A stretch of DNA of 64,000 bases from Hylemonella gracilis (GTDB lineage: Bacteria; Pseudomonadota; Gammaproteobacteria; Burkholderiales; Burkholderiaceae_C). Shown here in pieces: positions 41,138 through 63,771 of the stretch (its first letter is position 1; each line of letters opens with the position of its first letter). The stretch spans positions 583,501-647,500 of the forward strand of contig NZ_CP031395.1 of the NCBI RefSeq assembly GCF_004328645.1, in the 5' to 3' direction. The notes under the pieces were generated by a model, which searched no databases, was not told the DNA's origin, and saw only the letters and a list, made by a program, of their open reading frames with translations. The position numbers were made by a program, and so were the translations under genes.

Positions 41138-41653
<516 letters not shown>

Positions 41654-41729
41654 TCATTTCCCTTCCATCCATCCTGTCAACCCATCCTCCCGCACACGCA
41701 CGCTCCATGCCCGGCGCCGCACCCACTAA

Positions 41730-41746
41730 TGCACCAATAACGTGCA
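41730..41746. promoter_or_regulatory. Candidate NtrC binding site
   Basis: TGCACCAATAACGTGCA matches the NtrC palindrome TGCACC-N5-GGTGCA at 11 of 12 positions. It lies about 175-190 bp upstream of the glnK sigma-54 promoter, a normal enhancer distance, and about 100 bp before comM. No other gene-like sequence was seen in the 370-bp interval. Confidence 0.75.
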
Positions 41747-41846
41747 AATTCACGATGTCCAGCCCAAAATCCGGCGCTTTTTTGCAAGGTTTCGCATCGT
41801 ATTGCCCCGGCCCTGTCTTTTTCTGCACCGTTTTAAGGAGATTTGC

Positions 41847-43373: not shown

Positions 43374-43393
43374 CCTCACCGCAGCTCGCCACG

Positions 43394-43436
43394 AAAAACA
43401 CCCCAGACGCTGGAACGCTGTCCAAGGTCTGGGGTG
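43394..43436 (-). terminator. Terminator of the second amtB gene
   Basis: Perfect 10-bp stem CACCCCAGAC/GTCTGGGGTG with an 18-nt loop that can itself pair, followed on the minus strand by five T. It lies 42 bp after the amtB stop, between the convergent comM and amtB genes. Confidence 0.85.
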
Positions 43437-43477
43437 CGATTCACTCGGGGACCTTCATGTCCCCTGGCGAGCCGGAA

Positions 43478-44725
43478 TCAGATGCCGTAGCCTTCCTCGT
43501 GCAGGACATTGTCGAGACCAGCGGTTTCCGCGTCCGCGTTGACGCGGAAGCCCACGGTCTTCTCGACCAGGAAAGCCAGGATGTAAGTCACGACGAAGGA
43601 GTAAACAATCACCGTCACGGACGAGAGCACCTGGGCCGTCAACAGCTTGGCGCTGCCGGCGGAGAGCAGACTCTCGGCACCACCGACGCTACCGAACAGG
43701 CCAATCCAGATGCAGCCGATGAACCCGGCCACCAAGTGGATGCCCACGACGTCCAGGGAGTCGTCGTAGCCAAGCTTGAACTTGAGTTCAACGGCCAAGG
43801 CACAGATGGCGCCAGCAGCCAGGCCCAGCAGAATGGCCCAGATCGGTGTCAAGGATGCGCAGGCCGGCGTGATGGCCACCAGACCGGCGACGATGCCGGA
43901 AGCAGCGCCCACGGCCGTGGACTTGCCCAGCTTGAATTTCTCCACAATGATCCAGCCCAGGGCTGCTGCGGCCGGAGCGATCAAGGTGTTGAGGAAGATC
44001 AGACCGGACTGGTCCACGTTGGCGCCGTGCACGCCGGTGTTGAAGCCGAACCAGCCGAACCACAGAATGGCCGTGCCGATCAGCACCAGGGGCACGTTGT
44101 GGCTGGTGGCCAGTTGCTTGCCGAAGCCCGTGCGCTTGCCCAGAACCAGGGCCAAAGCCATGGCGGCAGCACCCGCGGATTGGTGAATCACCGTGCCACC
44201 GGCCCAGTCGATGGAAGCGCCAAAGCCGTACACGTCATTCGCCAGCCAGCCATCAAACTTGCCTTCGGCGTTCATGCCCCAGAGCCAGCGGAAGGTCGGG
44301 AACACGACAAAAGCAGCGAACAGGGCGGCGAACAGAATCCACGGCCAGAAGCGCGCGCGATCCGCCACGGCACCGGACGCCAGCGCAACGGTGATGATGC
44401 AGAAGGCGACCAGGAAGGCGTGGCCGGCGAACGCGCCGTAGCCCGCCGCATCCGACTTGCCAATGTTGCCGGCGATGGCGGAAAGACCAAAATCCGCGAG
44501 AGGGCTGCCCGCGAACCAGGACGAGGTTGCACCCACCTGCGAGGCGATGCCGGCACCGATCAGGACATAGAGAATGGCCACGACGATGATGGAGCCGAAG
44601 CTCAACATCATCATGGACACCACCGACTTGGACTTGACCAGACCTCCGTAGAAGAAGGCCAGGCCGGGGGTCATGAAAATAACGAGAGCCGCGCAAAGCA
44701 ACAGCCACGCAAGTTCTATCGACAT
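43478..44725 (-). CDS. amt: Ammonium transporter (second copy, shorter)
   Basis: 415 aa, starting directly in the first membrane helix (MSIELAWLLLCAALVIFMTPGLAFFYGGLVKSK) and lacking the signal peptide and linker of the first copy. Pore histidines are kept in DWAGGTVIHQSAG and DVVGIHLVAGFIG. The sequences are only moderately similar, so this is a distinct Amt subfamily rather than a recent duplicate. No PII gene is next to it. The ATG at 44725 has AAAGGTGG upstream. Confidence 0.93.
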   Translation of the reverse strand: MSIELAWLLLCAALVIFMTPGLAFFYGGLVKSKSVVSMMMLSFGSIIVVAILYVLIGAGIASQVGATSSWFAGSPLADFGLSAIAGNIGKSDAAGYGAFAGHAFLVAFCIITVALASGAVADRARFWPWILFAALFAAFVVFPTFRWLWGMNAEGKFDGWLANDVYGFGASIDWAGGTVIHQSAGAAAMALALVLGKRTGFGKQLATSHNVPLVLIGTAILWFGWFGFNTGVHGANVDQSGLIFLNTLIAPAAAALGWIIVEKFKLGKSTAVGAASGIVAGLVAITPACASLTPIWAILLGLAAGAICALAVELKFKLGYDDSLDVVGIHLVAGFIGCIWIGLFGSVGGAESLLSAGSAKLLTAQVLSSVTVIVYSFVVTYILAFLVEKTVGFRVNADAETAGLDNVLHEEGYGI

Positions 44726-44841
44726 TGAAACCACCTTTGGTTTTGGGTTGATGGGCTGGTCGTCAGCCACCCGATGCTCGTGAGCGAGAACGGGGCTGCA
44801 AACGCCTGTACAGAAACTGTCTTACAGACGGCGTGGCCATA

Positions 44842-47941: not shown

Positions 47942-48895
47942 CTAATAGCCCCGCGCGGGCTCGATCGTGTGGGCCGGCGCCTGGCCGCTGGCGATGCGCT
48001 CGATGTTCTCCGCGATCTGCCGCGCCGAGGTCGACGGAATCGCCACCGAGGCCAGATGGGGCGTGATCAGCACCTGAGGCATGTTCCACAGCGGGTCCCC
48101 GGGCGCCAGGGGCTCGCGCTCAAAGACATCCAGCGTGGCCGCGCCGATGTGGCCGCTGCGCAGCAAGTCCGTCAGGGCCGCCTGATCGACCAGGGCCCCC
48201 CGCGCCACGTTCACGAAGGCCGCGCCCGGCCGCATTTTCGCCAGTCGCTGGCGATCGAACAAATGCTTCGTCAAGGGCGTGAGCGGCAGCATCAGCACCA
48301 CGATGTCCGCCTGCCCGAGCACGCCGTCCAGCGCTTCCATGCCGGCGAAGCATTCAACGCCCTCGATCCGCGCGGGACTGCGCGACCAGCCCAGCGTCCT
48401 GAAACCCTGGCGCTGCAGTTCGTGGGCCGCCGTGGCACCCAGCTGGCCCAGGCCCAGCACGGCGACCGTGATGTCCTCGGGCGAACGGGGATGGCGATAG
48501 GCCCATGCACCCCGCCGCTGCGCCGCTTCGAAGAACGGGATCTCGCGCGCATGGCGCAGCACCGCGAACAGCACGTAGCCCGCCATCATGCGCGCCATGT
48601 TGGGATCGGTGATCCGCGTGATGGGGATGTCCTTGGGCAGATCCTGGCGTGCCACCAGGGAGTCCACGCCGGCCCCGAGGTTGATGATCAGGCGCAGGTT
48701 CGGCATGCGCTGGAAAAAGCCCTCGGGCGGCTTCCAGACCAGGGCGTAATGGACGTCCTCGGGTCGATCGATGGCGCTGGCATGCACCACCTTGAGCCCA
48801 GGCAGATGCATCTGGAGCGCGTTCTTCCAGGTGTCGAAATCGTCGAAGTCGCTGTAGAAAACCAGGGTGCCGAGCGCCTGTTCCATGACGTTCAC
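47942..48895 (-). CDS. D-2-hydroxyacid dehydrogenase (glyoxylate/hydroxypyruvate reductase A-like)
   Basis: 317 aa. NAD(P)-binding part with VAVLGLGQLGATAAHELQRQGF, then VVLMLPLTPLTKHLFDRQRL and NVARGALVDQAAL; catalytic Arg, Glu and His in NVARG, DVFEREPL and ITPHLAS. Resembles GhrA, which reduces glyoxylate and hydroxypyruvate. Its ATG overlaps the stop of the AroQ-like gene (ATGA). It is the last gene of the operon headed by the ABC ATPase, so a role in handling an oxoacid from the substrate is inferred. Confidence 0.9.
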   Translation of the reverse strand: MNVMEQALGTLVFYSDFDDFDTWKNALQMHLPGLKVVHASAIDRPEDVHYALVWKPPEGFFQRMPNLRLIINLGAGVDSLVARQDLPKDIPITRITDPNMARMMAGYVLFAVLRHAREIPFFEAAQRRGAWAYRHPRSPEDITVAVLGLGQLGATAAHELQRQGFRTLGWSRSPARIEGVECFAGMEALDGVLGQADIVVLMLPLTPLTKHLFDRQRLAKMRPGAAFVNVARGALVDQAALTDLLRSGHIGAATLDVFEREPLAPGDPLWNMPQVLITPHLASVAIPSTSARQIAENIERIASGQAPAHTIEPARGY

Positions 48896-49365
48896 ACCTC
48901 TTGCCTGCTCTTGCGCACCAGGCGCGAAACCGCCTCGATGGCGAGTTCGTAGCCGTCACCGCCGAGTCCGGCGATCACCCCATCAGCCACTTTCGAGATG
49001 TAGGAATGGTGACGGAAGGCTTCGCGCTTCCAGATATTGCTCATGTGGGTCTCGATGATCTTGCCGGGAAAGGCCATCAGCGCATCCAGGATGGGGATGG
49101 AGCTGTAGGTCAGGCCAGCCGCGTTGATGATGATGCCATCCGCGACGCCGCGCGCTTCCTGAATCCAGTCGACCAACTGACCCTCGTGGTTGGACTGCAG
49201 GAAACGCAGCTCGACCTCCAGCGCGGTCGCCTGGGCTTCGCAGCGCGACTGCAGCACGGGAAAGCTGTCCTTGCCGTAGGTCTTGTTCGCGTCCAGGCCG
49301 TACAGGTTGGCGTTGGGTCCATTGAGGAACCAGATCGTGATGGGGGTCATGGTGAGATCGCTCAT
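48892..49365 (-). CDS. AroQ-fold protein (type II 3-dehydroquinate dehydratase-like) with altered active site
   Basis: 157 aa with the type II dehydroquinase layout: ITIWFLNGPNANLYG, EGQLVDWIQEA, NAAGLTYSS, ETHMSNIWKREAFRHHSYIS and VIAGLGGDGYELAI. Compared by eye with canonical AroQ, the lid Tyr (TYGKD), the Asn of NAAG, the His of ETHMSN and the last Arg are kept. The Arg before the lid Tyr is missing (GLDANKTYG) and the His of the usual THTS motif is Tyr (TYSS). It may therefore act on another substrate. It belongs to the ATPase-QOR-GST operon. A second ATG at 49350 is possible. Confidence 0.85.
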   Translation of the reverse strand: MSDLTMTPITIWFLNGPNANLYGLDANKTYGKDSFPVLQSRCEAQATALEVELRFLQSNHEGQLVDWIQEARGVADGIIINAAGLTYSSIPILDALMAFPGKIIETHMSNIWKREAFRHHSYISKVADGVIAGLGGDGYELAIEAVSRLVRKSRQEV

Positions 49366-49382
49366 AGCGGGGGTTGAGGCTG

Positions 49383-50000
49383 TCAGGCGTCGTAAGGTCG
49401 CGTGGCCTGCATCGCGGGCAACCACTGGAACACCTCGTTCCAGCGAGCGGCTTGAGGGCATTGGCCGCGCCAGTCCAGCTCGGGAAAACGGAAGTCCAGA
49501 TACCCCAGACCGCAGCCGATCGTGACCTCGCCGATGGTGGCTTGATCGACCGCCAGGTCGCGCGCGACGGCCTCTATCGCCACCAAGCAGGCGTCCACCT
49601 TGGTCAGCAAAGCCTCGCGCCAGGCAGGCCACTGCACCTCCACAGGGCGGGCCGTCAGCTCGTAGCGCGCCAGCAGTGCGGCATCCAGCAAGCCGTCGCC
49701 CAGGGCCTGGCGGGTCAGTGCCGTCCATCGGGCGGCACCCGTCGCCGGAAAGAGGTGACGCGCACCGCCCCGGCTGGCGAGGTACTCGCAGATCACGCGG
49801 CTGTCGTAGAGGGACTGCCCGTCGTCGAGGATCAGGGTGGGCACCTTGGCCAAGGGGTTGTGCGCGGCGATGCGCGGATCACGGCGGATCGGATGGGCCG
49901 CGCTGTCGAGCAGTTCGATCTGGTCGGCCTGCCCGGTCAGGTGCGCGCAGACCATGACTTTGCGCACGAAGGGCGAGGTGGGGGCGTAAAGCAGTTTCAT
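49383..50000 (-). CDS. Glutathione S-transferase family protein
   Basis: 205 aa. Thioredoxin-like N-terminal domain (MKLLYAPTSPFVRKVMVCAHLTG, NPLAKVPTLILDDGQSLYDSRVICEYL, with the Pro and DS motif that bind glutathione), followed by an all-helical C-terminal domain. It is 3 bp after the quinone oxidoreductase gene and 17 bp before the AroQ-like gene. In this operon it may detoxify or isomerise an intermediate; that is inference. Confidence 0.9.
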   Translation of the reverse strand: MKLLYAPTSPFVRKVMVCAHLTGQADQIELLDSAAHPIRRDPRIAAHNPLAKVPTLILDDGQSLYDSRVICEYLASRGGARHLFPATGAARWTALTRQALGDGLLDAALLARYELTARPVEVQWPAWREALLTKVDACLVAIEAVARDLAVDQATIGEVTIGCGLGYLDFRFPELDWRGQCPQAARWNEVFQWLPAMQATRPYDA

Positions 50001-50003
50001 GAA

Positions 50004-51035
50004 TCAGAGGAGCAATACGAGTTTGCCGAAGACCTGGCCGCTTTCCAGCAAAGCGTGCGAGGCCGCCGCCTCGGCCAGTGGCAGGCTGCCGTGCAAACGG
50101 GGTTTGATGCGGCCGTTGCGCAGCTGGGGCAGCACGTGTCGGGTGATCTGCGCGGCCATGCGGGTCTTCTCGGCGTGGCTCTGCGGGCGCAGGGTGGACG
50201 AGTGCAGGCTCAACTGCTTCTGCATCAGGGTCAGCAGATCGACATTGACCACCGAACCCTGCATGAAAGACAGGCTGACGTGCCGGCCGCCAAAGGCCAG
50301 GGCCTGCAAATTGCGTCGCACATAGTCGCCGCCGACGATGTCCAGCACCACGTCCACGCCACGCCCTCCCGTGTAGTCCAGGCAGGCCTGGGTGAAGTCC
50401 GTGGTCGGCCAGCAGACCGTCAGGTCTGCGCCCAGCGCCTTGAGCGCGGCGAACCGGCTCTCATCGCTGTCGGTAACGATGACGGTGCAGCCGGCCGCGC
50501 GTGCCATCTGCGTTGCCAGGGTGCCGATGCCGCCGGCACCGCCATGGATCAGCACGGTCTCGCCCATGGCCAGACGGCTCAGCTCGAACAGGTTGTGCCA
50601 CACCGTGAAGAGCCCTTCCGGCAGGGCCGCCGCCTCAGCGTCCGAAAGATTGGCGGGGACCACGAAGGAATGTTCAAGCGCGGCCGTGCACCAGGGCGCA
50701 TAGCCGCCTCCGGGCACCAGGCTCATCAGCCGCTGCCCCATCAGCGCTGGGTCGACGCCCGAGCCACAGGCAACCACGTCGCCGCACACTTCCAGGCCCA
50801 GCACGTCGGTGACGCCCGGAGGCGGCTTGGCAATGCCCTGGCGTTGCATGATGTCCGGCCGGTTGACGCCGGCGGCACGCACGCGCAGCAGCACTTCACC
50901 TGCGCCGGGGGCGGGCATCGGACGTTCGGCCAGCACCAGCACGCTGGCGTCACCCGGCTCCCGGGCAACGACGGCGCGCATGGTGGCGGGAGGGGGGCTC
51001 TGGTCCTCGGGCATGGTGAGGGGTTCCACTTTCAT
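50004..51035 (-). CDS. NAD(P)H:quinone oxidoreductase (zinc-free MDR family)
   Basis: 343 aa. Starts after a short tail with TMRAVVAREPGDASVLVLAERPMPAPGAGEVLLRVRAAGVNRPDIMQRQG. The Rossmann motif is ETVLIHGGAGGIGTLATQMARAAG and the late VLDIVGGDYVRRNLQAL. It resembles the PIG3/QOR type acting on quinones or enones. It begins with ATG overlapping the ABC ATPase stop (ATGA), so both are made together. Confidence 0.9.
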   Translation of the reverse strand: MKVEPLTMPEDQSPPPATMRAVVAREPGDASVLVLAERPMPAPGAGEVLLRVRAAGVNRPDIMQRQGIAKPPPGVTDVLGLEVCGDVVACGSGVDPALMGQRLMSLVPGGGYAPWCTAALEHSFVVPANLSDAEAAALPEGLFTVWHNLFELSRLAMGETVLIHGGAGGIGTLATQMARAAGCTVIVTDSDESRFAALKALGADLTVCWPTTDFTQACLDYTGGRGVDVVLDIVGGDYVRRNLQALAFGGRHVSLSFMQGSVVNVDLLTLMQKQLSLHSSTLRPQSHAEKTRMAAQITRHVLPQLRNGRIKPRLHGSLPLAEAAASHALLESGQVFGKLVLLL

Positions 51036-52180
51036 TTCCGGGGACTGAACACGCTCACGCCCTCGTCGAGCAAGGTGAGCCCGACCACCGAACCGATGGG
51101 CCACTGCCGCATCGCGTTCAGGCCGGCGCTGCGCACCGTGACGACCTGGCGGGCCGTCATGGGAATGTCGACATCGACAAAGGTGTTGATGTGATCCCCC
51201 TGGAAAACATGGTGGATCACGGTGCCGCTGAGCACCGAGCCAGCGCCCAGGGTTTCCAGACGGAGATGCTCCGGACGCACATAGACATCCAGCCGTTCAC
51301 CCTCGTGAGACACGTCCACCAACCGCGCGCTCGGCAGGCTCAGCAGGCTGGAGCCCAGGCGCAACTGGACTTCCTGCGCGGTCTGGCCGTGGTAGTAAGC
51401 CGGCAGGATGTTCACATCGCCCAGGAAGGACGCGACAAAAGGATCTTGCGGGTTCTGGTACAGCTCGGCGGGCTGCGCGATCTGGCGGATGGCACCCGCG
51501 CTCATCACCGCGATGCGGTCGGACATGGCCAGGGCCTCGCCCTGGTCGTGCGTCACGAAGACGGTGGTCAGGCCCAGGCGGCGCTGGATCTCGCGGATTT
51601 CCACCTGCATGGCACCGCGCAGGCTTTTGTCCAGGGCCGAGAACGGTTCGTCCAGCAAGAGCACCTTGGGTTGGATGACCAGGGCACGTGCCAGGGCGAC
51701 GCGCTGCTGCTGTCCACCGGACAGCTCGCGGGGCTTGCGGTGCCCGAGGCCGTCCAGCTTGACCAGGGCCATGGCTTCCTGCACGCGCCGGGTGATCTCG
51801 TCAGCGCGCACGCCGCGCATGCGCAAGCCATAACCGATGTTGCGCTCCACGTTCATGTGCGGGAAGAGCGCGTAATTCTGGAACACGACGCCGATCTGCC
51901 GCTGATGCGGCGGTTCGCTGGTCACGGCTTGGCCATCGATGAAGATTTCGCCGTTGTCGGCCTCGGCGAAACCCGCGATCAGGTTGAGCAGCGTCGTCTT
52001 GCCGCAGCCCGATGGTCCCAGCAATGTGAGGAACTCACCGCGCCGGATCTTCAGCGAGAGCTCCTGCAACACGGTCTGATTGTTGTATTGCTTGACCACC
52101 CCTTCGAGGCTGACAGCGATCTCGGTCTGGGGCGGGGACATGCGGGACGGTCCGGCGGGCTGGGCATGGGCTGCGTTCAT
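51032..52180 (-). CDS. Spermidine/putrescine-type ABC transporter ATP-binding protein (PotA-like)
   Basis: About 382 aa. Walker A GPSGCGKTTLL, Q-loop VFQNYALFPHM, signature LSGGQQQRVALARAL, Walker B VLLLDEPFSALD and His-switch VFVTHDQ; the C-terminus has a TOBE domain (YVRPEHLRLE). It most likely powers the PotB/PotC-like permeases at 59.6-61.3 kb, which have no ATPase of their own. It heads the minus-strand operon with QOR, GST, AroQ-like and GhrA-like genes. The start could also be 52216 or 52141. Confidence 0.9.
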   Translation of the reverse strand: MNAAHAQPAGPSRMSPPQTEIAVSLEGVVKQYNNQTVLQELSLKIRRGEFLTLLGPSGCGKTTLLNLIAGFAEADNGEIFIDGQAVTSEPPHQRQIGVVFQNYALFPHMNVERNIGYGLRMRGVRADEITRRVQEAMALVKLDGLGHRKPRELSGGQQQRVALARALVIQPKVLLLDEPFSALDKSLRGAMQVEIREIQRRLGLTTVFVTHDQGEALAMSDRIAVMSAGAIRQIAQPAELYQNPQDPFVASFLGDVNILPAYYHGQTAQEVQLRLGSSLLSLPSARLVDVSHEGERLDVYVRPEHLRLETLGAGSVLSGTVIHHVFQGDHINTFVDVDIPMTARQVVTVRSAGLNAMRQWPIGSVVGLTLLDEGVSVFSPRK

Positions 52181-52210
52181 GCCTGAACGATAAGTCAATC
52201 GGCCCCCTTG

Positions 52211-52395
52211 CCGCATTTGCCGAAATTGATGCGGCTCTTCGGAAAAAACGAAACGCCCTCATGCGCAGAGGAGCGCGCCGATCCACACGGGCTTCGCGGG
52301 CGGCGCTTTGCTTTTTCCGAAGCCACGCGTCCGAAAAACGTGATTCTCAAACCGCGCCGGCTTCTTCAGACTCGCCGCATCGACGATGGATGCGC
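52211..52395. promoter_or_regulatory. Palindrome-rich divergent promoter region
   Basis: The 267-bp gap between the ABC ATPase and monooxygenase genes holds several dyads: CCGCAT-N12-ATGCGG at 52211-52234, an 11-bp inverted pair CTTCGGAAAAA (52237-52247) and TTTTTCCGAAG (52312-52322), and CGCAT-N9-ATGCG near 52377-52395. LysR-type regulators bind such dyads, and a LysR gene lies at 56.0 kb. No further coding potential was seen. Confidence 0.5.
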
Positions 52396-52447
52396 AGAGG
52401 CTTTGCGAACAACACGCGTCCGGGACGATGGACTTTAGGAAACTCAC

Positions 52448-53698
52448 ATGTCAGTGGAAAAAATCAACACGCTGGTGGTTGGCGGTGGTCAAGCGGGCAT
52501 CGCGATGAGCGAGCACCTCGCGCTCATGGGTGTCCCGCACATCGTGCTGGAGCGCCATCGGATCGCGCAACGGTGGCGCTCGGAGCGCTGGGACTCCCTG
52601 GTCGCCAATGGCCCGGCCTGGCACGATCGCTTCCCCGGGCTGAAGTTCAGCGGCATTTCCCCCGAAGCCTTTCCGCCCAAGGAGCGCATGGCGGACTACT
52701 TCGAGGAATACGCCCGGATGATCAAGGCACCCGTGCGTTGCGGCGTCGAGGTCCAGCAGGTGGAACGGCTGGTCGGCCGCCCGGGCTTCAAGGTGACGAC
52801 CTCCGAAGGCGTCATCGAAGCGGTCAACGTGGTCGCGGCGACCGGACCCTTCCAGGTCCCGGTCTATCCAAACATCGTGCCCGAGAGCGCGCAAGTCCAA
52901 CAGCTGCATTCCTCGCTCTACAAGAATCCGGCGCAGCTGCGCGAAGGCGCCGTGCTGGTGGTTGGTGCAGGCGCCTCGGGTTCGCAGATCGCCGAGGAAC
53001 TGCGCAAGACCGGCAAGACGGTGTACCTGTCGGTGGGCGAGCATTACCGTCCGCCGCGCTCCTACCGCGGCCGCGACTACTGCTGGTGGCTGGGCGCGCT
53101 GGGCCTCTGGGACGAAGTCGCCATCAAGCCCAAGAAGCAACACGTTGCCTTCGCTGTCAGCGGTTATGAAGGCGGCAAGACGGTCGATTTCCGCCGCCTG
53201 GCGCACATGGGCATCCAGCTCGTGGGCCTGACCCGGTCCTACCAGGACGGCGTCATCCAGTTCGAGGAAGGACTGGCCAAGAACGTGGGCGATGGTGACC
53301 AGGCCTACTTCGACGTGCTGCGCGAAGCCGACGCCTACATCGAGAAGAACGGCCTGCCCTTCCCGCCGGAACCCGAAGCCTGGAAACTGCTTCCGGACCC
53401 GGGCTGCCTCACACACCCGATCCTGCGCCTGGACCTGGCACAGGCCGACATCACCACCATCGTCTGGGCCACCGGCTTCACCTTCGACTACCGTTGGCTC
53501 AAGGTCGGCGCCTTCGACGAGAAGGGCCTGCCCCTCCACAAGCGCGGCATCTCGGCGGAAAGCGGCATCTATTTCCTGGGCCTGCCGAACCTGGTCAACC
53601 GCGCCTCGTCCTTCATCTACGGGGTCTGGCACGACGCGAAGTACATCGCGGACCACATCGTGACCCAGGAAGGCTACCGGACCTACGAGAAAGCTTGA
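52448..53698 (+). CDS. Flavin-dependent monooxygenase (FAD/NAD(P)-binding)
   Basis: 416 aa. FAD-binding Rossmann motif LVVGGGQAGIAMSEHLALMG at the N-terminus, an NADPH-binding motif VLVVGAGASGSQIAEEL near residue 175, and IVWATGFTFDYRWLK near the C-terminus, as in FMO and Baeyer-Villiger-like enzymes. AGGAAA lies 7 nt before the ATG. The neighbouring hydroxyacid dehydrogenase begins 6 bp after its stop. It could oxidise a nitrogen or carbon centre of the imported compound; no substrate is known. Confidence 0.88.
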   Translation: MSVEKINTLVVGGGQAGIAMSEHLALMGVPHIVLERHRIAQRWRSERWDSLVANGPAWHDRFPGLKFSGISPEAFPPKERMADYFEEYARMIKAPVRCGVEVQQVERLVGRPGFKVTTSEGVIEAVNVVAATGPFQVPVYPNIVPESAQVQQLHSSLYKNPAQLREGAVLVVGAGASGSQIAEELRKTGKTVYLSVGEHYRPPRSYRGRDYCWWLGALGLWDEVAIKPKKQHVAFAVSGYEGGKTVDFRRLAHMGIQLVGLTRSYQDGVIQFEEGLAKNVGDGDQAYFDVLREADAYIEKNGLPFPPEPEAWKLLPDPGCLTHPILRLDLAQADITTIVWATGFTFDYRWLKVGAFDEKGLPLHKRGISAESGIYFLGLPNLVNRASSFIYGVWHDAKYIADHIVTQEGYRTYEKA

Positions 53699-53704
53699 GC
53701 GGGC

Positions 53705-54847
53705 ATGGCCGAAATCACCTGCGTCGAGGACCTGCGCGTGCTCGCCCAACAGCGCGTGCCGCGCATGTTCTACGACTACGTCGACACCGGATCGTGGACC
53801 GAATACACCTACCGGGTCAATGAAGCGGATTTTCAGAACATCGAATTCCGCCAGCGCGTGGCGGTGGACATCACGACGCGCAGCACCGGCAGCACCATGG
53901 TGGGCCAGCCGGTCACCATGCCGGTCGCCATCGCGCCCACCGGGCTGACCGGCATGGTGCACGCGGACGGCGAGATCCTGGCGGCGCGGGCCGCGAAGCA
54001 GTTCGGCGTCCCCTTTACCTTGTCGACCATGAGCATCTGCCCGATCGAGGCGGTGGCCGATGCAACGCAAAGACACCCCTTCTGGTTCCAGCTCTACGTG
54101 CTGCGCGACCGGGGTTTCGTCGCCGAGCTGATCGACCGCGCGCGCGACGCCAACTGCTCGGCGCTCGTCGTGACCATGGACCTGCAGGTCTTCGGCCAGC
54201 GCCACAAGGACAAGAAGAACGGCCTGTCCACCCCGCCCTGACCGACGCTGCGCAATTTGCTGAACCTGGCGGGCAAACCCCGCTGGTGCTGGAACATGCT
54301 GCAAACCCGGCACCGCCACTTTGGCAACATCGTCGGCCATGCCAAGGGGGTGGACAACATCGGCTCGCTGGTGGAGTGGACGCGGGAGCAGTTTGACCCG
54401 CGCCTGTCGTGGCAGGACATCGAATGGATACGCCAGCGCTGGGCCGGCAAGCTGATCGTCAAGGGCATCCAGCACCCGGAAGACGCCCGTCTGGCGGTGC
54501 AAAGCGGCGCCGACGCCATCGTGGTGTCCAACCACGGCGGGCGCCAGCTGGACGGCGCTTCCTCGTCCATCTCGACCCTGCCGCGCATCGTGGAGGCGGT
54601 GGGTCATCGGGTGGAGGTGCACATGGACGGCGGCATCCGCTCCGGTCAGGACGTGCTGAAGGCCATCGCTCTGGGCGCGCGCGGCACTTACATCGGCCGG
54701 GCCATGCTGTATGGCCTGGGCGCGATGGGCGAGCAGGGCGTGGGCACCGTCCTGAAACTCATTCAGAACGAGCTCGATCTGTCCATGGCCTTCTGCGGCA
54801 AGACCGACATCGCCAGCGTGGGCCGCGAGATCCTCTCGCTGCGCTGA
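53705..54847 (+). pseudogene. FMN-dependent alpha-hydroxyacid dehydrogenase (LldD-like) interrupted by an in-frame TGA
   Basis: Reading through, the product is about 380 aa, the normal length of LldD/glycolate oxidase-type enzymes. The N-terminal half gives VPRMFYDYVDTGSWTEYTYR, PVAIAPTGLTGMVHADGE and WFQLYVLRDRGF, ending DKKNGLSTPP. Then comes TGA at 54239-54241 and, in the same frame, PTLRNLLNLAGKPRW, the FMN/His region VVSNHGGRQLDG and DGGIRSGQDVLKAIALGA. Family members have an Arg or Lys-Pro-Thr here, so a CGA to TGA change would explain it. The enzyme is probably inactive unless the stop is suppressed. Confidence 0.9.
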
Positions 54848-54850
54848 GCC

Positions 54851-56032
54851 TCACTGGCACAGAAAGTCGACCAGCCCCTGCAGCATGCGGTCGCAGGCCT
54901 CGATCTGCGACAGCGCCACGTACTCGTCCGCCTTGTGGGCCACCTCGATGCTGCCCGGACCGCAAACCAGGACCGGGGTCTGCGCCCAACTCTGCTGGAA
55001 CAGGCCACCCTCGGTGCCGTAGTCGACCTTGGTGCGCGGCGTGCCAGGCGGCAGCAGGGAACTGAGCAGACCGACGGCGGGTGCATCCTCGGGCGTGTTC
55101 AGGCTGGGGTAGCTGTTGCTCAGTTGGATCTCTGGCAGCGGCACGTCGGGGTGCACGGCATCGCTGGCCACGCGCACCGCGAGCCGCGCGAGGATGCGTT
55201 CGAGAATCCGTTCAGGCAGATCTTGCGAGACGTTGCGGATCTCGAAGTTCACCTCGCAGTCACTTGGCACGATGTTCAGGGCGCGTCCGCCGTGGATCGT
55301 GCCGACGTGGACGGTGCTGTAGGGCACGCCGTAGCCCGCCTCGCGCGGACCGGTCTCGGCCAGCTCGCGCTGCACGTCCCGCGCCGACGCGACGAGGTCG
55401 CTGGCCATGTGGATCGCGTTGACGAAGCGGGGCGCCAGGCCCGAATGGCCGGCCTGGCCACAGAAGATGGCGCGGTAGGCGGCCTTGCCCTTGTGTCCGG
55501 TGCCAATGCGCATCAAGGTCGGTTCCCCCACGATGCACAGATAAGGCGCGGGCCGACGGCCTTCCAGTCGGCGCAGAAGGTGACGCACGCCCACGCAGCC
55601 GATCTCCTCGTCAAAAGACAGCGCCAATTGCAGCGGACGGGTCAGCGGCCGCCGGGCCGCGGCCACCATGGCGGTGACCGCACAGGCGACAAAGCCTTTC
55701 ATGTCGGCCGCGCCGCGCCCGTGAATGCGGCCTTCCCGGTGCGTCGCCTCGAAGGGCGGAGAGGTCCAGGGCTGGCCCTCCACCGGCACCACGTCGGTGT
55801 GCCCGGACAGCAGCACGCCCGGAACACCTTCGGGGCCGACCGAGGCGTACAGATTGCTGCGGCTTGGGTCCTGCGGATCGGGCACCAAGGTCGCGGTGAT
55901 GCCGGCTTGCGCCAGGATCTCTGCCACCTTCTCGATGAGCCCAAGGTTCGGCTTCAAGGACACCGAGGGGAAGGCGATCAGCGTTTCCAGCAGGGTGACG
56001 CTGGGGGACGGTGTGGACGATGCGGGGTTCAT
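54851..56032 (-). CDS. M20-family peptidase, acetylornithine deacetylase (ArgE)-like
   Basis: 393 aa zinc amidohydrolase. Metal ligands appear in LLSGHTDVVPVEG, GRGAADMKGFVAC and SFDEEIGCVGVRHLL; the dimerisation domain includes CVIGEP-like IVGEPTLMRIGTGHKG and the Gln-rich closing lobe ends with GTEGGLFQQSW. It resembles ArgE, which removes acetyl from N-acetylornithine, but its place beside ridA and an importer points to degradation. It is the last gene of the ridA operon, 20 bp after lysR. Confidence 0.9.
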   Translation of the reverse strand: MNPASSTPSPSVTLLETLIAFPSVSLKPNLGLIEKVAEILAQAGITATLVPDPQDPSRSNLYASVGPEGVPGVLLSGHTDVVPVEGQPWTSPPFEATHREGRIHGRGAADMKGFVACAVTAMVAAARRPLTRPLQLALSFDEEIGCVGVRHLLRRLEGRRPAPYLCIVGEPTLMRIGTGHKGKAAYRAIFCGQAGHSGLAPRFVNAIHMASDLVASARDVQRELAETGPREAGYGVPYSTVHVGTIHGGRALNIVPSDCEVNFEIRNVSQDLPERILERILARLAVRVASDAVHPDVPLPEIQLSNSYPSLNTPEDAPAVGLLSSLLPPGTPRTKVDYGTEGGLFQQSWAQTPVLVCGPGSIEVAHKADEYVALSQIEACDRMLQGLVDFLCQ

Positions 56033-56052
56033 GACCAGGGGAAGCGTGACGT

Positions 56053-57012
56053 TCAGGACGCCGAAATATGAGGGTCGAAGAAACTGGCCGCGCTCATGCC
56101 GGGGATGTACTGGTCGGAGATGTAGGCGCGGCAGCGCTCCATGAACACGCGAACCAGCCTGGACTGCTTCATGGGTTTGTAGGTCGCCAGGCCCAGCAGC
56201 ATCGGGCGGTTGTTGCCGGCCAGGCGCACGCGCACCATGCGCTTGCCGTCGAGCGACTGGTTGGACTTGGGCCGGACGTTGAACAGGGCGTAGCCAATGC
56301 CATTGGCCACCATGGAACGCACCACCTCCTCGGAACGCGAGCGCGCCACGATGTTGGGCGTGACGCGCGCCTGGGTGAACAAGGAGGTGAAGTAATCGCG
56401 GCTCATCGGCAGGTCGAGCAGCACGTAAGGCTCGGGCGCCAGCTCCTCCAGGGTGACGGCGCTCTGCTGGGCCAGCGGGTGCAGCTCGCTGACCAGCACA
56501 TAGGGCGGCAGGGTCGCCAGGGCTTCGAACTCGATGTCGTCGCCCATGTTCAGGTCGTAGGTGATGGCCAGGTCGATCTCCAGCGCGTGGAGCTTGTTCA
56601 TCAGCACTTCCTGGTCGCCCTCGACCATCTGCAGCGCCACCTTGTCGAAGGCGCGAGCAAAGCCGAAGATGACTTCCGGCGCGATCATGGCCGTCAGCGA
56701 CTGGAAGCTTCCGACCCGCAAGGGCCCCTGGATCACGTCGGCCGTGTCCGAAGCGATTTCATACAGGCGCGAGGACCGCTCCAGCACGTCCTCGCATTGG
56801 CTCAGGACCAGCGTTCCGATCGCCGTCAGCCCCAGCCCCTTGGACGGATGGCGCACGAAGAGCTGCACATTGAGCTCGGACTCGATGTGGGCGATGGCCG
56901 CAGAGATGGACGGCGACGAAATATGGATCTGCGCCGAGGCAGCGGCGATGCTGCCGCACTTCGCCGTGGCGACGAAGTACTCCATTTGGCGCAGGGAAAC
57001 GCGGTTGAGCAT
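56053..57012 (-). CDS. LysR-family transcriptional regulator
   Basis: About 319 aa. N-terminal helix-turn-helix (LRQMEYFVATAKCGSIAAASAQIHISSPSISAAIAHIESEL) and a periplasmic-binding-protein-like effector domain. It lies inside the ridA-DUF1028-argE operon and is probably the cluster regulator, perhaps acting at the palindrome-rich divergent regions at 52.2 and 58.2 kb. A GTG at 57045 is an alternative start. Confidence 0.9.
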   Translation of the reverse strand: MLNRVSLRQMEYFVATAKCGSIAAASAQIHISSPSISAAIAHIESELNVQLFVRHPSKGLGLTAIGTLVLSQCEDVLERSSRLYEIASDTADVIQGPLRVGSFQSLTAMIAPEVIFGFARAFDKVALQMVEGDQEVLMNKLHALEIDLAITYDLNMGDDIEFEALATLPPYVLVSELHPLAQQSAVTLEELAPEPYVLLDLPMSRDYFTSLFTQARVTPNIVARSRSEEVVRSMVANGIGYALFNVRPKSNQSLDGKRMVRVRLAGNNRPMLLGLATYKPMKQSRLVRVFMERCRAYISDQYIPGMSAASFFDPHISAS

Positions 57013-57078
57013 GTCAAAGTGAAATGGGGCGCCGGACTCCGGCACCTGAAAGCGGCCTGCCAGTGTAGCGACCGCCCC

Positions 57079-57750
57079 TCACAGATTGCCAGGCACGCCG
57101 AAGCTGGGCGCGGCGCGCGGGTCCAAGGCGCGCGTGATGTAGGCCTGCAGTTGCGGCTCGTAGACTTTCCAGGTGACGTACAGGGCCTGCACGGGATCGT
57201 GCTCCACCCAGTCCAGGCGCAGGTCGACGATGGGCCAGTTCTGCTCGCCATACACCAGCAGGCCGGCCGAATGCACCGGGCCTTCCTCGCCGCCGGCCTG
57301 CTGACCAGCGAGCATGGCCTGCATCAGGCGCTCGGCCAGCGCGCCTTCGCTGCTTTCGAAGGCCGACAGCATGGCCCGGGGCACTTCGGGCGTTCGCAGC
57401 ATGTTGCCCGCACAGGCCGCATGCATTCCGACGGCGCTGGCCAACGTTCCCAAGGCCTGGGCGCCCGTGAAGACCACCGGTGGGTTGCTCGCGTCGATCG
57501 CCATCAGCTGGCGGTAGTCGATGAAGGGGCGCTTGCGCAGCTCCGCCACCGCCTGCTCGGGGGTCATGCCGCTGGCAAGCAAGTCGAGGATCAGCGGTCC
57601 CAGATCCGGGTCGGTGATGTTCTGGCTCGCCGCCGCCCCCACGCCCTTGCGGCCACGCACGCAACGCGAGGCGACCGCGGGCGAGGAGGACGCGACGGCC
57701 GCGCCGAATTGCCCGGTGCTAGGGCAGCGCGCGATGATGGAAAAGGTCAT
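57079..57750 (-). CDS. DUF1028 domain-containing protein
   Basis: 223 aa, starting MTFSIIARCPSTGQFGAAVASSSPAVASRC, the signature of DUF1028, which has an Ntn-hydrolase-like fold. The middle carries VGAAASQNITDPDLGPLILDLLASGMTPEQAV and a Gly-rich region. Such genes are often next to ridA and peptidase genes in Burkholderiales; the reaction is unknown. 7 bp after ridA in the same operon. Confidence 0.9.
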   Translation of the reverse strand: MTFSIIARCPSTGQFGAAVASSSPAVASRCVRGRKGVGAAASQNITDPDLGPLILDLLASGMTPEQAVAELRKRPFIDYRQLMAIDASNPPVVFTGAQALGTLASAVGMHAACAGNMLRTPEVPRAMLSAFESSEGALAERLMQAMLAGQQAGGEEGPVHSAGLLVYGEQNWPIVDLRLDWVEHDPVQALYVTWKVYEPQLQAYITRALDPRAAPSFGVPGNL

Positions 57751-57757
57751 GGGCGCC

Positions 57758-58171
57758 TCAATCCGGAATGACGGCGGTGGCGTCGATCTCGACCAGCCAC
57801 TCCGGGCGCGCCAGCGCCGACACCACGATCCCGGTCGACACCGGGTAGACGCCCTTCAACCAGCGCCCCACGACCAGGTAGACCGCCTCGCGGTAGCGTG
57901 GATCGATGAGGTAGATGGTGATCTTGCAGATGTCCTGCAGCTCGCCGCCCGCCTCCTTGAGCAGCATCGCGATGTTGGCCATGGCCTGCTCAGCCTGGCC
58001 GGCGACGTCGCCGATGCACACGCTCTCGGAGGTATCCAGATTCTGGCCAATCTGACCGCGCAGGAAGACGGTGCGACCGCGCGCGACAACGGCCTGGCAG
58101 AGGTCGTTGTCGAGCTTCTGCTCGGGATAGGTGATCTTGGTGTTGAACGGTCGGATGCGGGTGTGTTTCAT
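57758..58171 (-). CDS. RidA family (YjgF/YER057c/UK114) protein
   Basis: 137 aa. Starts MKHTRIRPFNTKITYPEQ and includes VFLRGQIGQNLDTSES, GDVAGQAEQAMANIAMLLKEAGGEL and VYPVSTGIVVSALARPEWLVEIDATAVIP. The conserved Arg before the last segment is read as PxxW rather than a classical R, so it may be a RidA-like member (Rid2-7) rather than RidA proper. Rid proteins hydrolyse reactive imines from amino acid and amine oxidation, which suits the monooxygenase and hydroxyacid enzymes nearby. Confidence 0.85.
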   Translation of the reverse strand: MKHTRIRPFNTKITYPEQKLDNDLCQAVVARGRTVFLRGQIGQNLDTSESVCIGDVAGQAEQAMANIAMLLKEAGGELQDICKITIYLIDPRYREAVYLVVGRWLKGVYPVSTGIVVSALARPEWLVEIDATAVIPD

Positions 58172-58415
58172 GGTCACGCTGGAGGCAATGAGGAAACGTC
58201 AATAGAGAACGTGATCGACGCCTGAGGCCGCCATGGTCATCGCTGCCGATCCTTCGCGCCATTTGTTTTTTCCGGGCGACCGTTTAGGAATTTCCGAGCA
58301 TGGGCTTCCGCGCCGCCCCATCGGGAAACTTGAGCCACCTCTAAGTAAAAGGCGACTTGGCCACGCGGCCGAGCTTTTCCATCATCTGTACCGTGATGCG
58401 AGGGCGATTTGGTGC

Positions 58416-58431
58416 AGGCATGTTGTTTGCG
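58416..58431 (+). promoter_or_regulatory. Candidate sigma-54 promoter of the ABC importer operon
   Basis: AGGCATGTTGTTTGCG keeps GG-N10-GC and TTGC, with two mismatches in the -24 box. It would start transcription near 58442, leaving a 63-nt leader before the ATG at 58505. The 333-bp divergent region also holds TTTTTTCCGGG and AATTTCCGAG, resembling half-sites of the 52.2-kb region. Confidence 0.4.
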
Positions 58432-58504
58432 TTCCGGGGACCAAGACGCACCAACACATCCTCACCGTGGGCAGATGTTCAACTTTTCTTATCGAGGTCT
58501 ATCA

Positions 58505-59533
58505 ATGATTCGCAAATTTCTAGCACTGGGGGCGCTCGCCGCCGCGCTGACGGCCACCACGGCCGGAGCCCAGGACAACGCGCTCGTGGTCAGCACATGG
58601 GGCGGCAGTTTCCGCGACCTGATCGACGAGAACATCGGCAAGGAATTCACCCGGCAGACCGGCGTGCCGGTGAAGTACGTGACCGGCGGCACCATCGACC
58701 GCCTGAACAAGGCCAAGCTCGCCACCACACCCGAAAGCGACATCACCTTCACCACCTCGCACATCGGCTGGCTGTACGTGAGCAGCAATCTGTTCGAGCA
58801 GCTGGACACCCGCAAGATCCCCAACTTCAGCCACCTGGTCGACCGCGCCAAGATCAGCCCGTACCACATCGGCAGCTGGGCCTATATCTATTCCATCGGC
58901 TACCGTCCCGACCTGGTGCCGTCCAGCGTCAAGTTCGAAAGCTGGAACGACCTCTGGAACCCGGCCCTGAAAGGCAAGATCAGCGCGCCCGATTTCGACC
59001 CGAGCCACATCATCGCGGTCTCCGCCAAGCTGTCGGGCGGTGACGCCGCGACCTGGGAAAAGGGCCAGGACAAACTCAAGGCGCTCAAGCCCAACTTCAA
59101 GGCCTTCTACACCAACGACGCCAATGCACAGCAGCTGATCGCCACCGGCGAGACGCCGGTCGAAGTCATCCTGTCGATGAACGCCTACCACATGGCCAGC
59201 CAGGGCGTGCCCATCAAGGTCGTGATGCCCAAGGAAGGCGCCGTGCTGGGCGTGGACACCATGGCCATCATGAAAGGCAGCAGCAAGACCGAGCTGGCCT
59301 ACAAGTTCCTGAACATCGCCCTGTCCCCCGACGTGCAATCGAAGATCGTGGCATCCAAGAAGGCCAGCCCCGTCATCGACAACGCCACCGTCTCGGCCGA
59401 AGACGCCAAGCTGCCCGGCGTGTTCACCACCAAGCAGCAGTGGGACAGCCAGACCATCGTGATCGACAACAAGCTGCGCGCCGAGAAAACCGCGGAATGG
59501 CGCAAGTGGTTCACTGAAAACATCATGAACTGA
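58505..59533 (+). CDS. ABC transporter substrate-binding protein (PotD/spermidine-type)
   Basis: 342 aa. Sec signal (MIRKFLALGALAAALTATTAGA, cleavage near AGA-QD) and then VVSTWGGSFRDLIDENIGKEFTRQTGVPVKYVTGG, typical of receptors for polyamines and related opine- or ectoine-like solutes. Later parts show KLSGGDAATWEKGQ and VMPKEGAVLGVDTMAIM. A GAGG lies before the ATG. The first gene of the importer operon. Ligand unknown. Confidence 0.92.
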   Translation: MIRKFLALGALAAALTATTAGAQDNALVVSTWGGSFRDLIDENIGKEFTRQTGVPVKYVTGGTIDRLNKAKLATTPESDITFTTSHIGWLYVSSNLFEQLDTRKIPNFSHLVDRAKISPYHIGSWAYIYSIGYRPDLVPSSVKFESWNDLWNPALKGKISAPDFDPSHIIAVSAKLSGGDAATWEKGQDKLKALKPNFKAFYTNDANAQQLIATGETPVEVILSMNAYHMASQGVPIKVVMPKEGAVLGVDTMAIMKGSSKTELAYKFLNIALSPDVQSKIVASKKASPVIDNATVSAEDAKLPGVFTTKQQWDSQTIVIDNKLRAEKTAEWRKWFTENIMN

Positions 59534-59633
59534 ACCCGACACCGGTTTGAACACGGGGAGGACTCCGGCGCCCAGTGGCCGCCGGGGCCCTCCCTCTCCG
59601 ATTGAACATCCACAGAACAACAGGGTTTACGCA

Positions 59634-60482
59634 ATGCGCTCCGATCTACGCGCCTGGCTACTTTCCCCAGCCGTCATCGTCGCGGTGTGCATCGCGGTGT
59701 CCTTGGTCACGGTCCTCCAGTTCAGCTTCCGGGCTTTCGTGCCAGGCTCGCTGGACGTGGGCGGGCTCACCTGGGCCAATTTCAGCGGCCTGGGCAAGAG
59801 CATCTACCTCGACGCCTTCTTCAACACCTTCTGGCTGAGCGTGGAGACGACGGTCTTCTCCCTGCTCGTCGCCTATCCGCTGGCTTATGCCCTGGTACGC
59901 GTGAAGCACCGGGCACTCAAATCTTTCATCCTGGTGACCTCCATCACGCCCCTGTTCCTGGGCGAGATCGTGCGCACCTACTCCTGGATCGCCGTGCTGG
60001 GCAGCAACGGTTTCATCAATGGCGCGCTGCGCCAGCTGGGCCTGATCGAATGGCCGCTGCCCCTGATGTTCACCCACTTCGGCGTGCTGATCGCGCTGGT
60101 GCACGTGACGATCCCCGTGGTGGTGCTGATGCTGGCCACGGCCATCTCGCACATCGACCGCGACTACGAGAAGGCCGCGCAGAGCCTGGGGGCTGGCCCG
60201 GTTCGCACCTTCCTCACCGTGACCCTGCCGCTCTCGATGCCCGGCATCCTGGCCAGCATCACCACCGCCTTTGCCTGGACCTTCAGCGCCTTCGCCACCC
60301 CCCAGATGATCGGCGGCGGTCGCGTGCCCACGATTTCGACGCTGGTCTACCAGCTCGGCTTCTCGTCGATGAACTTCCCGCTCGCGGCCAGCCTGAGCGT
60401 GATCGGCCTGATGCTGACGGGCACCGCGCTCTTTGCCCTGAGCCTGTTGACCAAGCGCCTCAAGGCCGTCGGAGGACATTGA
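59634..60482 (+). CDS. ABC transporter permease (PotB-like)
   Basis: 282 aa with six or more membrane helices. The EAA loop reads DYEKAAQSLGAGPVRTFLTVTLPLSMPGI, the signature contact for the ATPase. First helix near residues 9-30. It pairs with the downstream permease, 3 bp away, to form the translocation pore for the PotD-like receptor. Confidence 0.92.
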   Translation: MRSDLRAWLLSPAVIVAVCIAVSLVTVLQFSFRAFVPGSLDVGGLTWANFSGLGKSIYLDAFFNTFWLSVETTVFSLLVAYPLAYALVRVKHRALKSFILVTSITPLFLGEIVRTYSWIAVLGSNGFINGALRQLGLIEWPLPLMFTHFGVLIALVHVTIPVVVLMLATAISHIDRDYEKAAQSLGAGPVRTFLTVTLPLSMPGILASITTAFAWTFSAFATPQMIGGGRVPTISTLVYQLGFSSMNFPLAASLSVIGLMLTGTALFALSLLTKRLKAVGGH

Positions 60483-60485
60483 GAC

Positions 60486-61307
60486 ATGAAAATCAAAAGC
60501 TCCCTGCCCCTGCCGCTGCGCATCGCCGGCCCGGTGCTGATCATCCTGCTGCTGGCCTTTGTGCTGCTGCCGGTGGTGGTGGTGACCATCGCCTCGTTCA
60601 ACGAGAAGGCGATCCTCACCTTCCCGCCCGAGTCCTATTCGCTGAAGTGGTTCGAGCGCGTCTTCAGCTACCCGGACTTCCGTGAAGGCTTCAAGGCCAG
60701 CCTGATCATCACCGCCTGGTCGTCCTTCGTCGCCCTGGTGATCGGCACCTGCCTGTCGGTGGCCGTCAAGCGGCTCGCGTTCAAGGGCAAGCAGCCCCTG
60801 CTGGCCATCCTCCACGCGCCGCTGGTGATCCCCCATTTCACGCTGGGGCTGGGCCTGCTGATCCTGGTGTCGCAGCTCTCGGTGCAACGCGGTTACGGCA
60901 CCGTCATCCTCTGCCACGTGATGCTGGTGTTGCCCTTCGTGATGCGCAGCGTGTACGTGTCCATGGAAAACCTGGACGAGCGACTGGAGCAGGCCGCCGC
61001 CAGCCTGGGCGCTTCCCCGGTCAAGGTGCTGTTCACGGTGACCTTCCCGCTGCTGGCGCCCGGACTGTTCGGCGGCTGGCTGTTCGCGGCCATCATGTCC
61101 TTCAGCGAATTCACCGCCTCGCTGTTCGTCACGACCCAGGCGACGCAGACCCTGCCGGTCGCCATGTACAACTACGTGCGCGAGTTCGCCGACCCGACCC
61201 TGGCCGCGCTGTCGGTCATCTACATCGCGGTCACGGCGGCGGTGCTGTTCTTCGCCAACTACTTTCTCGGACTGGGCAAGATCCTCCACATCGAGGACAG
61301 ACCCTGA
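60486..61307 (+). CDS. ABC transporter permease (PotC-like)
   Basis: 273 aa. Helices at both ends, and the EAA loop RLEQAAASLGASPVKVLFTVTFPLLAPGLFGG. It starts with a short basic tail and PLRIAGPVLIILLLAFVLLPVVVVTIASF. Third gene of the importer operon; no ATPase gene follows, so the ATP-binding protein at 51 kb is needed. Confidence 0.92.
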   Translation: MKIKSSLPLPLRIAGPVLIILLLAFVLLPVVVVTIASFNEKAILTFPPESYSLKWFERVFSYPDFREGFKASLIITAWSSFVALVIGTCLSVAVKRLAFKGKQPLLAILHAPLVIPHFTLGLGLLILVSQLSVQRGYGTVILCHVMLVLPFVMRSVYVSMENLDERLEQAAASLGASPVKVLFTVTFPLLAPGLFGGWLFAAIMSFSEFTASLFVTTQATQTLPVAMYNYVREFADPTLAALSVIYIAVTAAVLFFANYFLGLGKILHIEDRP

Positions 61308-63234: not shown

Positions 63235-63771
63235 ATGAATCAGATCCTCACTACCATCCCCACTCTCGATGCGCCCGAGCCAGCAGGCTCGCATGCGCGG
63301 CGCATCGCCATCATCAGCGCGAGCTGGCACGAGGACATCGTCGCCAACGCGGTCGCGGCGGCACGTGCCGAGCTGTTGCGAAGTTGGACCACGCCGCCGC
63401 GTGTCGAGCACTTTCAGGTGCCTGGCGCTTTTGAGATTCCGCTGCACGCGCTCAGCCTGGCCGCGACGGGCGGCTATGACGCCATCATCGCCTGCGGACT
63501 GGTGGTCAACGGCGGCATCTATCGCCATGATTTCGTCGCAGCGGCGGTCATCAATGGCTTGATGCAGGTTCAGCTACAAACCAGCGTGCCCATCTTCTCG
63601 GCCGTTCTGACGCCCCACGACTTTCACGAGCACGAGGAGCATCGCAAGTTCTTCAGTGAGCACTTCGTCAAGAAGGGCCTGGAAGTCGCGCGCGCCTGCG
63701 TGGAAACACTGCGCAGCCTCGCCAGGCTGAACGACGTGGCCTCGGTCATACATCGAGCGCAACCGGCCTGA
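63235..63771 (+). CDS. ribH: 6,7-dimethyl-8-ribityllumazine synthase, RibH2 type
   Basis: 178 aa. Riboflavin biosynthesis: condenses the pyrimidine intermediate with dihydroxybutanone phosphate. Marks are RIAIISASWHEDIV, VPGAFEIPLHALSL, GLVVNGGIYRHDFVAAAVINGLMQVQLQ with the catalytic His, and SAVLTPHDFHEHEEHRKFFSEHFVKKG. The last segment is characteristic of the decameric RibH2 group rather than the usual RibH1. It is controlled by the FMN riboswitch upstream. Confidence 0.93.
   Translation: MNQILTTIPTLDAPEPAGSHARRIAIISASWHEDIVANAVAAARAELLRSWTTPPRVEHFQVPGAFEIPLHALSLAATGGYDAIIACGLVVNGGIYRHDFVAAAVINGLMQVQLQTSVPIFSAVLTPHDFHEHEEHRKFFSEHFVKKGLEVARACVETLRSLARLNDVASVIHRAQPA

Follow-up and report, generated by a model that had tools for sequence, protein, structure and literature searches.

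Within a 64,000-nucleotide stretch of the Hylemonella gracilis genome (contig NZ_CP031395.1, positions 583,501 to 647,500; hereafter the window), 14 genes at 47942-61307 form one conserved, mobile catabolic unit. The island likely extends the half of histamine catabolism that starts from imidazole-4-acetate, and its probable role is the import and degradation of an imidazole compound akin to imidazoleacetate. It consists of a core of five genes, encoding a flavin monooxygenase (FMO; gene fmo), a Rid protein, a DUF1028 protein, an M20 deacylase (argE) and a LysR regulator, of eight extra genes (potA, qor, gst, aroQ, ghrA, sbp, potB and potC), and of a gene for a flavin mononucleotide (FMN) dehydrogenase. 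A single uptake-and-degradation unit for a nitrogenous compound had been proposed in an earlier, sequence-only reading of the window, and this proposal is supported by the co-occurrence of the genes elsewhere.

To survey that co-occurrence, a scan was made with DUF1028, of which the best 80 of 168 relatives were kept, and plasmid and genome loci were added to give 100 loci. Since the loci were mostly fetched by DUF1028, the core is over-represented by design. At least seven of the eight extra genes are present in 44 of the 100 loci; fmo is also present in 37 of these 44, and all five core genes in 35. Several of the remaining loci begin inside the island owing to the 10-kb fetches, while Aminobacter L133 is truly without this FMO. 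After strings differing by truncation alone are merged, five arrangements are seen, namely those of Comamonadaceae/Cupriavidus (25 loci), Alcaligenaceae/Paraburkholderia and kin (13 loci), Klebsiella/Pantoea/Pseudomonas silvicola (4 loci), Aminobacter (1 locus) and Roseivivax (1 locus). The gene order is therefore shuffled and the content kept, and this co-inheritance is strong evidence for joint function. In the reverse check, starting from AroQ, the four plasmid matches above 60% that were opened (L151-L154, hand-picked from 188 records) all carry Rid, DUF1028, argE and fmo.

The island is mobile. Of 201 plasmid records that match its 13.3-kb Klebsiella block, 109 cover at least 80% of it, and the complete 14-gene island is found in the K. 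pneumoniae plasmid pUUH239.2 (L111:1180-14487), flanked by toxin-antitoxin genes of the vapB/PIN-domain and RelE/ParE families. Of 5,426 E. coli RefSeq genomes a single one has the block; there it lies on a plasmid at two sites, the larger with 56% coverage, a division that may reflect a block crossing the record start; a second E. coli record matches over 96 bases only. No FMO match above 38% identity was found in any of the 24 other genomes of the window's genus, some of which are incomplete, and the island is therefore accessory in that genus. The core without the AroQ module is found in Acinetobacter, Psychrobacter, SUP05, Snodgrassella, Arthrobacter, Acetobacter and others. In Acinetobacter, Psychrobacter and Snodgrassella, Rid is much more conserved (80-91% identity) than its neighbours (about 45-61% for the other core proteins). 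In Azospirillum (L130:9992-12678), Rid, an agmatinase-family gene and argE are consecutive, with no DUF1028 between them.

By gene order and published descriptions, the core corresponds to the hinFLHG/HinK half of histamine catabolism, which leads from imidazole-4-acetate to aspartate. About one third of the island matches a known histamine pathway, and the remainder is a front end for which no description was found. As set out in PMC8231116, histamine enters through HinA and is turned into imidazole-4-acetic acid by HinC and HinD; hinFLHG then take this acid to aspartate, and the LysR regulator HinK responds to imidazole-4-acetic acid. PMC6467879 gives HinF as EC 1.14.13.5, HinG as EC 3.5.1.8, HinH as an amidase, HinL as an enamine deaminase and HinI as aspartate ammonia-lyase, and reports growth on histamine of three Brevibacterium strains with hin homologues. 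The hinFLHG order (FMO-Rid-DUF1028-M20) recurs in six loci, those of SUP05 (L109 and L110), Arthrobacter (L129) and Burkholderia multivorans (L135), together with L138 and L139, whose FMOs are 59-62% identical to the window FMO. The Arthrobacter set comprises an aldehyde dehydrogenase, a primary-amine oxidase, LysR, FMO, Rid, DUF1028, M20 and an aspartate ammonia-lyase, and an omega-aminotransferase together with an aldehyde dehydrogenase adjoins the core in four Acinetobacter loci (L077, L079, L081 and L082) and in SUP05 L110. In the window's own genome, aspartate ammonia-lyase has a 42% match elsewhere, and the best aminotransferase match is likewise 42%. A homologue search with a hin-type DUF1028 returned no name of the genus Pseudomonas among the 120 matches listed.

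The core proteins of the window fit these assignments to different degrees. The HinF-like FAD monooxygenase (52448-53698, + strand; PF13738/FMO) is a relative of TIGR04046 (MSMEG_0569 oxidoreductase) that falls below the curated cut-off (350.6 versus 498 bits). The HinG-like M20 enzyme of the ArgE family (54851-56032, -) scores 468 bits with PRK07522 (cut-off 412). The HinK-like LysR regulator (56053-57012, -) matches PDB 6m5f/3fzv, which we take to be HinK, with 194 bits, the next match being 84; conversely, when the genome was searched with that sequence, the window LysR came top of 58 matches, at 193.8 versus 85.8 bits and 37% identity. A structure of HinK is reported in PMC8231116, the available part of which adds nothing more on it; the available part of PMC10912698 repeats the report that HinK needs imidazole-4-acetic acid and gives no PDB code. 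The HinH-like DUF1028 protein (57079-57750, -; PF06267, 219 bits) has a predicted structure (predicted local distance difference test score 93) with the taspase/HslV fold and an N-terminal Thr, the features of a Thr-type N-terminal nucleophile (Ntn) hydrolase. In the HinL-like Rid protein (57758-58177, -; PF01042) and its relatives, the position of Arg105, which in RidA presumably binds the carboxylate of the 2-imino acid, is Ser in 92 of 93 sequences and Phe in one, and Glu120 is kept in all 93. With the arginine replaced in every copy, the protein does not fit the RidA 2-iminoacid deaminases.

The two divergent promoter regions of the island share a motif. The words TTTTCCG and TTTCCGA, on either strand, are present in 33 of 34 fmo-potA regions and in 32 of 35 sbp-rid regions, and the best shared 7-mer across 30 shuffles reaches 38%; the motif was found post hoc by a plain word count among related loci, whose kinship the shuffles do not remove. 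In divergent region 1 of the window (52181-52447, 267 bp), TTTCCGA on either strand lies at 52239 and 52314 and TTTAGGAA at 52434; in divergent region 2 (58178-58504, 327 bp), TTTAGGAA lies at 58283 and TTTCCGA at 58291. These three copies of TTTCCGA and two of TTTAGGAA are all that the whole window contains. No palindromic LysR dyad is common to both promoter sets, the best being present in about 20% of each. The window LysR may bind the shared motif.

The remaining genes, namely the PotABCD/AroQ/GST/QOR/GhrA/FMN module, would constitute an alternative front end, and no description of it was met in the literature searches made. Its AroQ paralogue (48892-49359, -; PF01220) has the dehydroquinase fold, and in all 51 copies, that of the window among them, the lid Arg is replaced by Asp and His85 by Tyr. 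We assume that these positions have the roles and numbering of the type II dehydroquinases, i.e. R23 as the catalytic lid Arg and H85 as the substrate His, and on this footing the replacements speak against dehydroquinase function. Tyr28 and the VEVH His, both present in all 51 copies, are retained along with two Asn, and another AroQ paralogue in the same genome keeps both the lid Arg and His85. Also in the module are a GhrA-like D-2-hydroxyacid dehydrogenase (47942-48895, -; PF02826; 201 bits with the GhrA model, cut-off 403), a glutathione S-transferase (GST; 49383-50000, -; PF13409/PF13410) and an NAD(P)H quinone oxidoreductase (QOR) of the PIG3 family (50004-51041, -; TIGR02824, 388 bits, cut-off 297). 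The importer genes encode a Pot-type ABC ATPase (51032-52180, -), a periplasmic substrate-binding protein (SBP; 58505-59533, +; PF13416) and PotB-like and PotC-like permeases (59631-60482 and 60486-61307, both + and PF00528).

The importer had been called PotABCD-type, and is so in part: the ATPase is just over the cut-off of the polyamine subfamily (TIGR01187, 362.6 versus 355.6 bits), but the SBP scores only 74 bits with the PotD model (cut-off 582) and 51 bits with the PotF model (cut-off 636), so that it is Pot-like only and its identity as a polyamine importer was rejected. The nearest PDB sequences to the SBP are mostly spermidine/putrescine-binding proteins. PotABCD is replaced in Shinella oryzae by a TRAP transporter with DctP and DctM domains and by an EutA-like gene, and such a transporter fits an organic acid substrate.

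Other sets of genes accompany the core outside the AroQ group. Among these 46 loci, aminotransferase neighbours are found in 5, an amine oxidase in 1, and PhyH/aldolase in 15 (L078, L080, L086-L089, L093, L095, L097-L100, L102, L103 and L136), at the thresholds used, and all are absent from the 54 AroQ loci. The PhyH-type loci mostly also have a class II aldolase (PRK07490 in L103) and a polar amino acid SBP, and this set is a possible further front end. Because the AroQ module is never found with such neighbours, alternative front ends serving one core are suggested, although taxonomy is partly confounded with this pattern. It is an evenly balanced proposal that the module is an undescribed route from an as yet unnamed natural imidazole compound to the substrate of the hin core, by way of a dehydroquinase that has been adapted to a different and perhaps cationic substrate, and that this route spreads as a mobile island, Klebsiella plasmids included.

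From these matches, the substrate and every chemical step may be proposed as follows. The PotABCD-type genes would import an imidazole carboxylate, and the AroQ-like, GST, QOR, GhrA-like and FMN 2-hydroxyacid enzymes would feed the core; candidate substrates are imidazoleacetate and possible precursors of it, for example an imidazole 2-hydroxy or 2-oxo acid. The HinF-like FMO would then oxidise the ring, the HinL-like Rid and the HinH-like DUF1028 Ntn hydrolase would open and deiminate it, and the HinG-like M20 enzyme would free aspartate from its N-formyl form. Both divergent promoters would be co-ordinated by the HinK-like LysR, whose counterpart in P. aeruginosa responds to imidazole-4-acetic acid.

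Several observations weigh against the assignment to imidazoleacetate catabolism. The FMOs of the extended islands form a separate clade with 100/100 support (the contig behind its one unlabelled row is too short for the module to be seen), and their substrate may differ. Aminotransferase, amine-oxidase, aldehyde-dehydrogenase and APC neighbours are found in none of the 54 AroQ loci at the thresholds used, and Aminobacter L133 has an HpaB-type monooxygenase instead of the FMO. The M20 of Arthrobacter L129 is distant (33 bits to PF01546) and gives no tblastn match to the window M20, and the equations of HinH with DUF1028 and of HinG with M20 are deduced from order and descriptions. The shared motif is also limited in range: among 19 promoter regions of other lineages, the TTTCCGA-type 7-mer occurs in L084 only and TTTAGGAA in L077 only, L078 and one Pantoea region have TTCCGA alone, and 15 have none of the tested words, while neither the 7-mer nor TTTAGGAA is present in the Klebsiella or Roseivivax promoter regions. 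Genes of the hut set lie nearby in only one (L088) of the 80 loci of the DUF1028 scan. Lastly, the affinity of HinK measured for imidazole-4-acetic acid is low, 1.56 mM, according to PMC8231116.

Some of these points suit a different substrate. The core may have been recruited from the hin pathway into an extended island that degrades another N-heteroaromatic or imidazole acid, such as a ring-substituted imidazoleacetate, with products that are not simply aspartate and formate. The separate FMO clade, the extra enzymes kept in content in the absence of any histamine-type neighbour in the 54 AroQ loci, and the Asp at the AroQ lid position in 51 of 51 copies would all agree with this; however, the HinK-like regulator is kept, Rid, DUF1028 and M20 are kept together, and the Aminobacter version, in which the AroQ-type set is coupled to HutD, has an aspartate ammonia-lyase. 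This alternative is considered unlikely, yet worth keeping in view.

Far less probable is the path put forward in the sequence-only reading, in which an N-acyl amino acid or polyamine derivative is imported, deacylated by the ArgE-like enzyme, oxidised, hydrolysed as an imine by Rid and reduced as a 2-oxo acid by GhrA. It takes its support from the family labels and the PotA-like ATPase, but the core matches hinFLHG, Rid is without the RidA arginine, and both the SBP scores and the TRAP transporter of Shinella oryzae speak against a polyamine. Its order of reactions is probably wrong, as the Hin monooxygenase acts on imidazoleacetate and the HinG amidase comes late by EC number. The accompanying statement that no known pathway using this set was recognised no longer holds for the core, which corresponds to a known pathway, the development that was to count against it (PMC8231116, PMC6467879); it stands for the front-end module within the searches made. 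Three or four unrelated operons brought together by chance, a view that could appeal to the core occurring without the AroQ module (42 loci with Rid are without the AroQ variant), can be practically dismissed, being contradicted by one gene set in five arrangements across several classes and by a promoter motif common to both regions.

An island of this extended form likely related to imidazoleacetate catabolism may be compared with known systems. It resembles hin of Pseudomonas putida U and P. aeruginosa PAO1 in its FMO, Rid-type protein, amidase, M20-type hydrolase and LysR, and in the hinFLHG order of the six related loci. Unlike hin, its locus is without HinA, HinC and HinD, its FMO and Rid/DUF1028/M20 genes are on separate units, and PotABCD, AroQ-like, GST, QOR, GhrA and FMN dehydrogenase genes are added. 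The Rut pyrimidine pathway follows a similar logic of flavin monooxygenase, Rid and amidase with a monooxygenase of a different family, and the window Rid scores 29 bits with RutC against a cut-off of 169. An EutA-like gene in 19 of the 54 AroQ loci and an M24 DoeA-like gene in SUP05 L109 recall ectoine degradation (eut/doe), but the label was rejected, because the EutA-like gene scores 129 bits (cut-off 318) and the DoeA-like gene 174 (cut-off 575), and the window has neither gene. Literature searches around the DUF1028, RidA-family and dehydroquinase neighbours returned no publication on the gene set, and among the matches listed for imidazole-4-acetic acid none concerned the island by its title or abstract start. 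The main text of the Aminobacter MSH1 genome paper, in its available part, does not mention histidine, imidazole, dehydroquinate or polyamine.

All the families named earlier were found at 47942-61307 in a Pfam/NCBIfam profile search. The genes form four transcription units rather than the three operons first described, namely ghrA-aroQ-gst-qor-potA (-), fmo-fmnDH (+), argE-lysR-DUF1028-rid (-) and sbp-potB-potC (+), and the divergent promoters reported with them are confirmed as the two regions above; every other gap between genes is 97 bp or less. The ATPase gene lies about 7.4 kb from the permease genes, in agreement with the 7 kb given before.

The LldD-like FMN 2-hydroxyacid dehydrogenase (53705-54847, +; PF01070 on both halves) is interrupted. 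It is read as two open reading frames in one frame, 53705-54241 and 54257-54847, split by a single TGA at 54239-54241. No internal stop is present in any of the 18 relatives gathered at a threshold of 70% identity, and the window copy is therefore probably inactive. The gene is present at 60% identity or more in 19 of the 37 extended islands that include fmo, but not in the other 18; one of these 18, that of Roseivivax (L152), does have a gene annotated as alpha-hydroxy acid oxidase adjoining fmo, and in L064, L069 and L071 a relative with 38-40% identity lies in another part of the island. The gene looks optional.

On the chromosome the island adjoins a hut set (hutG, F, I, D, U, H and C), which starts 2.5 kb past potC and lies mostly beyond the window. 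The hut pathway also acts on the imidazole ring, as is proposed for the island. The hut families of the adjoining operon are not in the island, while HutD is in the Aminobacter version. As the neighbour recurs in L088 only, the support it gives is modest. Embedded in the hut operon (C1:647287-658247; L148:3288-14248) are genes for a hisC-like aminotransferase and for a GlcD-like FAD dehydrogenase, which would suit an additional use of imidazole-lactate. A PRK12419-type lumazine synthase (63235-63771) lies between the island and the hut operon, and at 41138-44770 P-II and ammonium transporter genes (nitrogen assimilation) stand either side of a Mg-chelatase-type (YifB-like) gene.

A widely conserved and uncharacterised gene set, carried on many Klebsiella plasmids, is thereby linked to histamine/imidazoleacetate metabolism. 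For DUF1028 a function as a Thr-type Ntn amidase is suggested that can be tested, and a dehydroquinase paralogue with an altered active site is exposed. One core would be served by several possible front ends: an amine oxidase or aminotransferase, PhyH with an aldolase, or the AroQ module.

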